A stretch of DNA of 64,000 nucleotides, taken from Ornithinimicrobium sp. F0845. GTDB taxonomy: Bacteria; Actinomycetota; Actinomycetes; Actinomycetales; Dermatophilaceae. The notes under the pieces are model-generated. The model searched no databases and was not told the DNA's origin. It saw only the letters and a list, made by a program, of their open reading frames with translations. The stretch lies in the NCBI RefSeq assembly GCF_023015765.1, contig NZ_JALKAL010000008.1, forward strand, positions 12,857 through 76,856, written 5' to 3'. Positions 19,128 through 19,770 of this stretch are shown one piece after another. Position 1 is the first letter of the stretch. The number at the start of each line of letters is the position of its first letter. A program made the translations under genes and the position numbers.

Positions 19128-19159
19128 TTGACCTTGGACCTGGGTCCAAGGTCTACCGT
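19128..19159 (+). promoter_or_regulatory. MerR-type promoter with operator dyad
   Basis: A -35 TTGACC (19128-19133) and a -10 TACCGT (19154-19159) are separated by 20 nt, the long spacer typical of MerR-activated promoters. Inside the spacer lies a perfect 9-bp dyad (CCTTGGACC, 2 nt, GGTCCAAGG; 19132-19151). The merR ATG is 7 nt past the -10 box, so the message is leaderless and probably autoregulated. Confidence 0.8.
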
Positions 19160-19166
19160 CGGTGAC

Positions 19167-19601
19167 ATGGACATCACGACGGCGCCGCGCCTGCGCGTCG
19201 GCCAGCTCGCCAGGCAGGCCGGGGTGACGACGGACACCATCCGCTTCTACGAGCGCGAGGGGCTGCTGCCGGAGCCGGCACGGACTCCGTCCGGCTACCG
19301 CGACTATGGCCCCGAGGCCACGGACCGGCTCGCGTTCATCCAGGGCTGCCAGCGACTCGGCCTGCGTCTGTCGGACATCCGGCAGTTGCTCGGGATCCGG
19401 GACACCGGCGTGTGCCCGTGCGGCCACGCCGAGGAGCACCTACGCCGCCGGATCGCGGAGGTCGACGCCGAGCTCGAGCGGCTCAGCACGCTGCGCTCCG
19501 AGATGGCGGCCATGGCCCAGGCATTGCCCAGCGCCGACTGCCCCGCACCACCGGGCGCCACCTGGTGCCCGCCCGACTGCGAAGGAGGTGACTGCACATG
19601 A
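19167..19601 (+). CDS. MerR-family metal-responsive transcriptional regulator
   Basis: The 144-residue protein has the MerR DNA-binding domain (LRVGQLARQAGVTTDTIRFYEREGLL, PSGYRDYG) and a long dimerisation helix (about 88-120). Cysteines at 83 and 85 (GVCPCGH) begin that helix, and Cys125, Cys134, Cys138 and Cys143 crowd the tail. The Cys at the helix start is the hallmark of soft divalent-metal sensors (Hg, Cd, Zn, Pb) rather than Cu(I) types. The start follows the leaderless MerR-type promoter. Its stop overlaps, as ATGA, the start of a Cys-rich peptide gene, presumably its target. The exact metal is unknown. Confidence 0.9.
   Translation: MDITTAPRLRVGQLARQAGVTTDTIRFYEREGLLPEPARTPSGYRDYGPEATDRLAFIQGCQRLGLRLSDIRQLLGIRDTGVCPCGHAEEHLRRRIAEVDAELERLSTLRSEMAAMAQALPSADCPAPPGATWCPPDCEGGDCT
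19582..19591 (+). promoter_or_regulatory. Perfect extended Shine-Dalgarno sequence for the Cys-rich peptide
   Basis: AAGGAGGTGA, the full 10-nt complement of the 16S anti-SD tail, lies inside the end of merR, 6 nt before the peptide ATG. It decides the start and implies strong translation. Confidence 0.85.
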
Positions 19602-19681
19602 CTGACCCCACTTGCACCATGACCTGCGACTGCACGCAGTGCCCCGAGTGCCACGACTGCGCCGACTGCAGCTGCTGCTGA
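19598..19681 (+). CDS. 27-residue metallothionein-like cysteine-rich peptide
   Basis: The predicted 27-residue peptide (begins MTDPTCTMTCDC, ends ADCSCC) has nine cysteines at 6, 10, 12, 15, 18, 21, 24, 26 and 27 and one His at 19, with no aromatic residue. The C-x2-C run followed by C-x-C-C looks like a metal-thiolate cluster, the metallothionein principle. It matches no bacterial metallothionein that I know (SmtA/BmtA or MymT types are about twice as long and differently spaced). Its start overlaps the merR stop by ATGA, and a perfect Shine-Dalgarno sequence lies inside merR. I infer metal buffering or sequestration controlled by the upstream MerR protein. It is far shorter than the usual annotation cutoff. 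Confidence 0.75.
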   Translation: MTDPTCTMTCDCTQCPECHDCADCSCC

Positions 19682-19688
19682 GGGCTCC

Positions 19689-19717
19689 GCCGGGGCGGCC
19701 CGGACGGCTGCCCCGGC
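19689..19717 (+). terminator. GC-rich hairpin after the merR-peptide operon
   Basis: GCCGGGGC and GCCCCGGC form a perfect 8-bp stem with a 13-nt loop, starting 7 nt after the peptide stop. There is no T-run; terminator by position. Confidence 0.5.
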
Positions 19718-19764
19718 AGCGCGCAGCTGCCGCGACTGCGGTGGTGACTGTCGGTAAGGGGGTC

Positions 19765-19770
19765 TAGCGT
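19765..19770 (+). promoter_or_regulatory. -10 box of leaderless flavin-fold gene promoter
   Basis: TAGCGT lies 7 nt before ATG METPADPA. A GTG at 19769 with AAGGGGG 6 nt upstream is the rival start. Confidence 0.45.

Follow-up and report, generated by a model that had tools for sequence, protein, structure and literature searches.

Promoters of the MerR family are defined by a spacer of 19-20 nt that holds the operator dyad, and the metal-sensing regulators of this family carry a ligand cysteine at the start of the dimer helix together with a cysteine pair in a C-terminal metal loop. Among metallothioneins, one domain of the animal protein forms an M3S9 cluster, SmtA is about 56 amino acids long, and MymT, which is about 53 amino acids long and under the control of RicR, is longer than the peptides described here; to our knowledge, MymT is not linked to a MerR regulator. 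Schmidt et al. (2010), cited in PMC4531530, reportedly surveyed actinobacterial metallothioneins in silico, and that survey could include some of these peptides. In PMC7387436, the cyanobacterial SmtB/SmtA system is presented as a metal sensor gene and a metallothionein gene on either side of the operator-promoter, with SmtB acting as a divergently transcribed repressor, and MymT of Mycobacterium as an actinobacterial cysteine-rich metal-binding protein with a role in copper. PMC12193353, a review of bacterial metallothioneins and sensor families, assigns SmtB to the ArsR-SmtB class, and PMC4531530 mentions a possible metallothionein of Frankia. Short and formerly unannotated cysteine-rich frames, associated with leaderless mRNAs, are described for mycobacteria, which also belong to the Actinomycetota, in PMC4633059, where they are proposed to be leaders upstream of other genes. 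At the level of titles and abstract openings, no pairing of a MerR regulator with a metallothionein in bacteria was found in the open-licence literature.

The locus described here lies in the window, the whole stretch of 64,000 nt that was analysed from the 4.2-Mb genome of Ornithinimicrobium sp. F0845, and its features are collected in Table 1. In contrast to SmtB/SmtA, a MerR-type sensor gene precedes a much shorter peptide gene on the same strand, and whereas the mycobacterial frames lie upstream of other genes, the frame in this case lies at the end of merR. The two genes overlap, the ATG of the peptide gene (19598) sharing the sequence ATGA with the merR stop codon, and the nine cysteines of the encoded peptide occupy positions 6, 10, 12, 15, 18, 21, 24, 26 and 27. 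The promoter, dyad, merR gene, Shine-Dalgarno sequence, ATG overlap, 27-codon frame and cysteine positions of a preliminary description of this DNA were all recovered in their places; a further feature, absent from that description, is that the merR start codon lies 7 nt past the -10 element. The hairpin that follows the peptide stop codon is a possible operon end. The locus is likely to be an autoregulated two-gene metal-stress operon, in which a MerR sensor is paired with an ultra-short, metallothionein-like peptide as the main output.

Table 1. Position and composition of the elements of the merR-peptide locus in the window.
Feature	Position	Strand	Details	Basis
MerR-type promoter	19128-19159	+	-35 TTGACC 19128-19133; 20-nt spacer 19134-19153; -10 TACCGT 19154-19159	Read from sequence
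Operator dyad	19131-19152		ACCTTGGA-CCTGGG-TCCAAGGT (N6 centre); inside spacer	Sequence; conserved in relatives
merR, 144 aa	19167-19601	+	ATG at 19167; stop TGA 19599-19601	
Shine-Dalgarno sequence, perfect	19582-19591	+	AAGGAGGTGA; within the merR 3' end	
Cys-rich peptide gene, 27 aa	19598-19681	+	MTDPTCTMTCDCTQCPECHDCADCSCC; coordinates include the stop codon	Counterparts in relatives
GC-rich hairpin	19682-19722	+	Immediately after the peptide stop; 80-nt fold -47.0 kcal/mol; without U-run	

The identity of the regulator was studied by profile comparison. The window MerR scored 69.8 bits against PF13411 (cut-off 21.6) and 58.5 bits against PF09278 (cut-off 25.4), and the Pfam domains above cut-off were MerR_1, MerR and MerR-DNA-bind; by its HTH and MerR-DNA-bind domains, the protein belongs to the MerR family. 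A CPC motif (C83 and C85) stands at the start of the dimer helix, and the tail contains C125-x8-C134. The profile matches among solved structures comprised 4ua1 (a MerR-type regulatory protein), CadR, a further MerR-family chain, mercuric MerR and CueR. The C85 residue aligns with the cysteine at the dimer-helix start of 4ua1, 6jgf (CadR) and 5gpe, an equivalence by which the window MerR would be of the metalloregulator type, and C125 and C134 fall outside the aligned region of the five structure chains shown. The distance from C85 to C125 is 40 residues here, against 35 residues between the equivalent cysteines of classical metal-sensing MerR proteins. The first seven homologs share C83, C85, C125 and C134 without exception, and in the larger collection described below the cysteine that follows the tail tryptophan is missing from six of the 76 peptide-bearing rows. 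The window MerR thus has in common with CadR, ZntR and MerR the same domains, the C85-equivalent cysteine and a dyad within a 20-nt spacer. It differs from them in scoring below the NCBIfam equivalog cut-offs, namely for MerR (Hg; 94.4 against 150.85 bits), CadR/PbrR (93.1 against 151.45), ZntR (78.7 against 167.95) and, in addition, CueR (77.6 against 147.4), and in that its output would be a peptide instead of an exporter or reductase.

The occurrence of the peptide was examined in a scan of one genome per species, selected on MerR patterns alone, from which the best 80 of the 114 relatives identified were taken. With the addition of the window and L041, and after removal of the duplicates L038, L039 and L040, 82 merR loci were obtained. 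A cysteine-rich frame was present at the merR end in 76 of the 82; it was found in 74 of the best 80 relatives and was absent from the other six (L078, L080, L087, L091, L118 and L120). According to the tree labels, the peptide-bearing loci belong to 14 named families of Actinomycetota, together with one Rhodococcus plasmid (L122), where the peptide is followed by a hairpin, as judged by eye, and no gene is listed at that place in a plasmid gene table that is incomplete. The first seven homologs, window included, carried the frame without exception (7/7), and L040 contains a cysteine-rich frame that lacks an ATG.

The distribution is patchy. A close MerR homolog was present in six of 186 genomes of the same family (E 1e-35) and in two of 396 genomes of the order sample (E 1e-40), the Ornithinimicrobium genome itself being counted in both cases. 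Within a sample of 394 genomes of the class, the peptide was located behind each of the six top MerR matches (E 1.9e-56 or better), five of which repeat genomes or sequences from the sets above and one of which (L140) is new, and no peptide was located behind ten weaker matches (E 1.4e-40 to 9.1e-36, at most 50% identity). Likewise, of 34 loci from other MerR subfamilies (L002-L008 and L011-L037; many of them only distant relatives), 32 were located, and no peptide was seen at any of these. The Ornithinimicrobium genome also contains two further MerR genes a short distance apart (G000:C4:121911-122782; L002 and L004) that are 44-45% identical to the query, and a cysteine peptide was not found there.

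The 76 peptides are 12-34 residues long and contain 5-10 cysteines, which make up 34% of the residues after the methionine, and their median net charge is -5. Traits typical of metallothioneins are widespread among them, with CC in 72, CxC in 68 and CxxC in 52 of the 76, and aromatic residues in just nine. Start codons were picked by a score that favours a good Shine-Dalgarno sequence, and on this basis ATG was assigned in 55 cases, GTG in 19 and CTG in two; the start precedes the merR end in 51 of 76 loci. A Shine-Dalgarno match of at least 7 nt is present in 73 of 76 loci and a spacing of 8-9 nt in 63, starts having been partly chosen by this very element. Searches of Pfam and NCBIfam returned no match for the window peptide or for eight of the other 75, with little power for queries this short.

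The coding status of the frame was further studied using a strict test that demanded 12-40 amino acids, at least five cysteines, at least 20% cysteine, an ATG, GTG or TTG start and a Shine-Dalgarno sequence at 3-13 nt. This combination was present at 75 of the 82 merR ends, at none of 304 ends of other called genes in the same loci and at none of 889 other sites with a Shine-Dalgarno sequence and start codon in those loci, the gene caller behind the controls being a simple one that sometimes calls the strand opposite a gene. The frame noticed at the end of merR is therefore beyond chance. A codon test was then based on pairwise alignment within 16 groups of closely related peptides, 53 of the 76 in total, and gave a pooled pS of 0.306, a pN of 0.120 and a pN/pS of 0.39. 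Of 886 positions with a cysteine in at least one of the two rows compared, 855 retain it in both, 78 of them via a synonymous change. Note that pairwise pooling counts shared changes repeatedly and that Glycomyces provides 550 of the 855 kept cysteines. The ratio was at least 0.76 in three of the 16 groups (short Glycomyces, 0.97; Virgisporangium, 2.36; Thermocrispum, 0.76), each with few sites. A lack of conservation of the frame or its cysteines beside the same merR, which would speak against the preliminary description, was thus not observed. Chance or composition as the source of the frame was rejected on the two controls and the codon test.

The promoter was compared across 79 peptide-bearing rows (76 loci and three duplicates), each site being the best match to a template. 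All 79 carry, upstream of merR and in the direction of merR, 19-25 of the 25 scored letters; the spacer is 20 nt in every row, and the TTGA of the -35 element and the A and last T of the -10 element are invariant. The template was not found in six peptide-less rows (scores 11-17). In 73 of the 76 loci, 6-8 nt separate the -10 element from the first in-frame start codon of merR; at this distance, transcription would start on that codon or immediately beside it, and the merR mRNA is probably leaderless.

Further targets of the regulator were sought by an operator search that allowed up to three mismatches, in 23 peptide-bearing genomes (G141 and G556 show the same place) and four peptide-less ones. 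The Ornithinimicrobium genome contains a single exact operator, the other two matches being its reverse reading and one site elsewhere with three mismatches. The operator of merR itself was found in 23 of 23 peptide-bearing genomes, and 17 of these have no further site. The remaining six have extra operator-like sites: one each in G000 and G557 and two in G564, all with three mismatches, one each in G017 and G562 with two mismatches, and one exact site in G559. The G562 site lies ahead of another MerR gene, whose product has a long C-terminal domain (L134, G562:C16), and the G559 site (L129, G559:C1:933661-933688) adjoins a frame that resembles, by eye, the C-terminal domain of that same MerR. 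Since both sites lie beside other MerR sequences, other MerRs may share the operator. An intact regulator gene was not seen behind the exact operator at L129, which looks like a remnant.

No other neighbour or operator is constant at these loci. In 49 of 76 loci the next called gene is oriented against the peptide gene, in 26, the window among them, it shares its strand, and one locus has no such gene. Downstream genes differ between loci, and the most frequent family among them occurs in that position in the 14 Glycomyces loci alone, on the opposite strand. The 60 nt after the peptide fold with a mean of -31.7 kcal/mol (n = 76), compared with -22.4 kcal/mol for 380 random segments of 60 nt and -23.9 kcal/mol for 310 segments after other genes, and -30 kcal/mol is reached in 38 of the 76 loci; this folding suggests that the unit ends after the peptide. 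In the window, a PNPOx-type gene on the same strand starts at 19769, 87 nt after the peptide. This gene is probably outside the unit, since a PNPOx relative lies upstream of merR in L042 and L065. The variable or opposite downstream genes, the stronger folding and the single operator in 17 of 23 genomes agree with the original view of the pair as self-contained. Arsenic-type genes, of either the LMWPc type, which we take to be arsenate-reductase-like, or the SBF type, presumably ACR3-like, were assigned from cluster representatives in the flanks of 10 of 76 loci from several families (L044, L047, L054, L057, L058, L059, L060, L061, L075 and L109). In the Geodermatophilaceae loci L062, L073, L092, L095, L097 and L113, the upstream flank contains a gene for an FAD/NAD(P)-type oxidoreductase in the opposite orientation, and the oxidoreductases of L062 and L092 end in a cysteine-containing tail.

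The relatives without the peptide were also considered. In G565, G566 and G567, an operator match with two mismatches precedes a gene for a P-type ATPase-like protein (L130, L132 and L133) that is kilobases away from the peptide-less merR or, in G567, on another contig; these sites do not adjoin that merR, so their control by its product is something we infer. A second operator site in G566 precedes an unrelated gene beside another MerR (L131), and further sites were recorded in G568, at G564:C27 and at G567:C117. The plasmids L123 (Mycobacteroides) and L124 (Streptomyces) each have an annotated cation P-type ATPase gene transcribed divergently from merR, and the operator lies in the interval that separates the two. 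Two of the five ATPases (L130 and L123) were compared with NCBIfam, and both passed the heavy-metal and cadmium-subfamily cut-offs, that of L123 passing the copper-subfamily cut-off as well. The ATPases point to metals of the Zn/Cd/Pb type.

In a tree of the regulators, the rows without the peptide, eight in number when L123 and L124 are added to the six of the 82, form two nested clades of five and three, L118 and L123 being identical at the alignment length used. The peptide label changes three times on this tree, as expected from one gain and two losses, the deep forks being weak because few columns serve many rows. The tail of the regulator differs between the two sets: among the 82 rows, the peptide-less ones have W-R (five) or W-K (one) there, and the peptide-bearing ones have W-C (70), W-L (five) or W-Y (one). 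Saccharothrix deserti carries both kinds of MerR of this subfamily in one genome, peptide-bearing (L114) and peptide-less (L120). At two loci, L041 (G186) and L099, the peptide is fused in frame to the C terminus of MerR. Both fusions retain the internal Shine-Dalgarno sequence and ATG, by which these loci may yield a free peptide besides the fused form.

Other interpretations of these data were weighed. The peptide could be a portion of the sensor that has become separate from it, a metal donor or off-switch by which metal is handed to or taken from the cysteine tail of MerR, and not a bulk buffer. The in-frame fusions argue for this, as does the absence of the peptide from exactly the six of 82 rows with a W-R or W-K tail, with W-C in 70 of 76 peptide-bearing rows. 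However, the five W-L rows and the W-Y row retain the peptide, a free peptide is possible from the internal start of both fusions, and peptide length and sequence are more variable than expected for a docking partner; on balance this reading is considered unlikely. Another possibility is that the operon answers arsenite or antimonite, with the peptide as a thiol sink for As(III) or Sb(III). The LMWPc- or SBF-type genes near 10 loci from several families would be consistent with it, but 66 of 76 loci have no such gene in the flank examined and the like operators of the peptide-less relatives precede heavy-metal P-type ATPases, and we regard it as quite improbable. The sensing of a soft metal is kept in the operon reading, but the soft divalent metals named in the preliminary description are not established, with arsenic-type genes near some loci and yet heavy-metal ATPases behind the operators of peptide-less relatives.

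There are two further interpretations. In one, the frame is a cysteine-sensing leader, and translation through its run of cysteines controls the following gene. Such leaders are proposed for mycobacteria in PMC4633059, and a same-strand gene does follow in 26 of 76 loci, including the PNPOx-type gene in the window. This idea is nevertheless disfavoured by the gene neighbourhoods, in which the next gene is variable, is opposite in 49 of 76 loci and is nowhere a constant co-directional partner; the folding after the peptide also suggests the end of a unit, and the frame goes with a single subfamily of MerR. It is given hardly any credence. In the other, the frame is non-coding and arises incidentally, either from a conserved RNA element or from sequence composition where merR ends. 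The genome is GC-rich and TGC is dominant, accounting for 509 of 548 cysteine codons, which speaks for such an origin. Against it stand the empty controls (0/304 and 0/889), the retention of cysteine, in part through synonymous changes, with the low pN/pS, and the conservation of the Shine-Dalgarno sequence and start in loci whose peptides vary widely in length and sequence, and this explanation too is very improbable.

For the two-gene operon, the simplest mechanism that can be proposed is one in which translation of the peptide, the leaderless start, metal binding, induction and feedback are all predicted from sequence. MerR would bind its own promoter at the dyad, within a spacer that at 20 nt is over-long, and a soft metal bound at C85, perhaps together with C83, C125 and C134, would realign the promoter in the manner of known MerR activators and switch on both merR and the peptide gene. 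The sensor would probably be read from a leaderless mRNA and the peptide from a near-perfect Shine-Dalgarno sequence, an arrangement from which the peptide is expected to be in excess of the sensor. The peptide, acidic and one-third cysteine, would then act as an ultra-short metallothionein that holds metal as a thiolate cluster, and the nine cysteines of the window peptide would suit an M3S9 cluster. By lowering the free metal, the peptide would return MerR to its off state.

Taking the relatives together, we lean towards a broader reading, held with some reserve, in which the pair is a stand-alone and previously undescribed sensor-chelator module. The conserved target of MerR would be its own operon, and the output would be metallothioneins of 12-34 amino acids across the Actinomycetota; two daughter lineages would have lost the peptide and have an operator of the same type before a heavy-metal exporter, and two other lineages would have fused peptide and sensor. 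The loss of the peptide, together with an operator of this type before an exporter, would mean that sequestration was swapped for export under one sensor. If this is correct, some of the smallest metallothioneins would have gone unrecognised across the Actinomycetota, and a MerR regulator would control a metallothionein in a compact, self-regulating metal sensor-buffer. The lineages in question would then represent a natural experiment in the exchange of export and sequestration.
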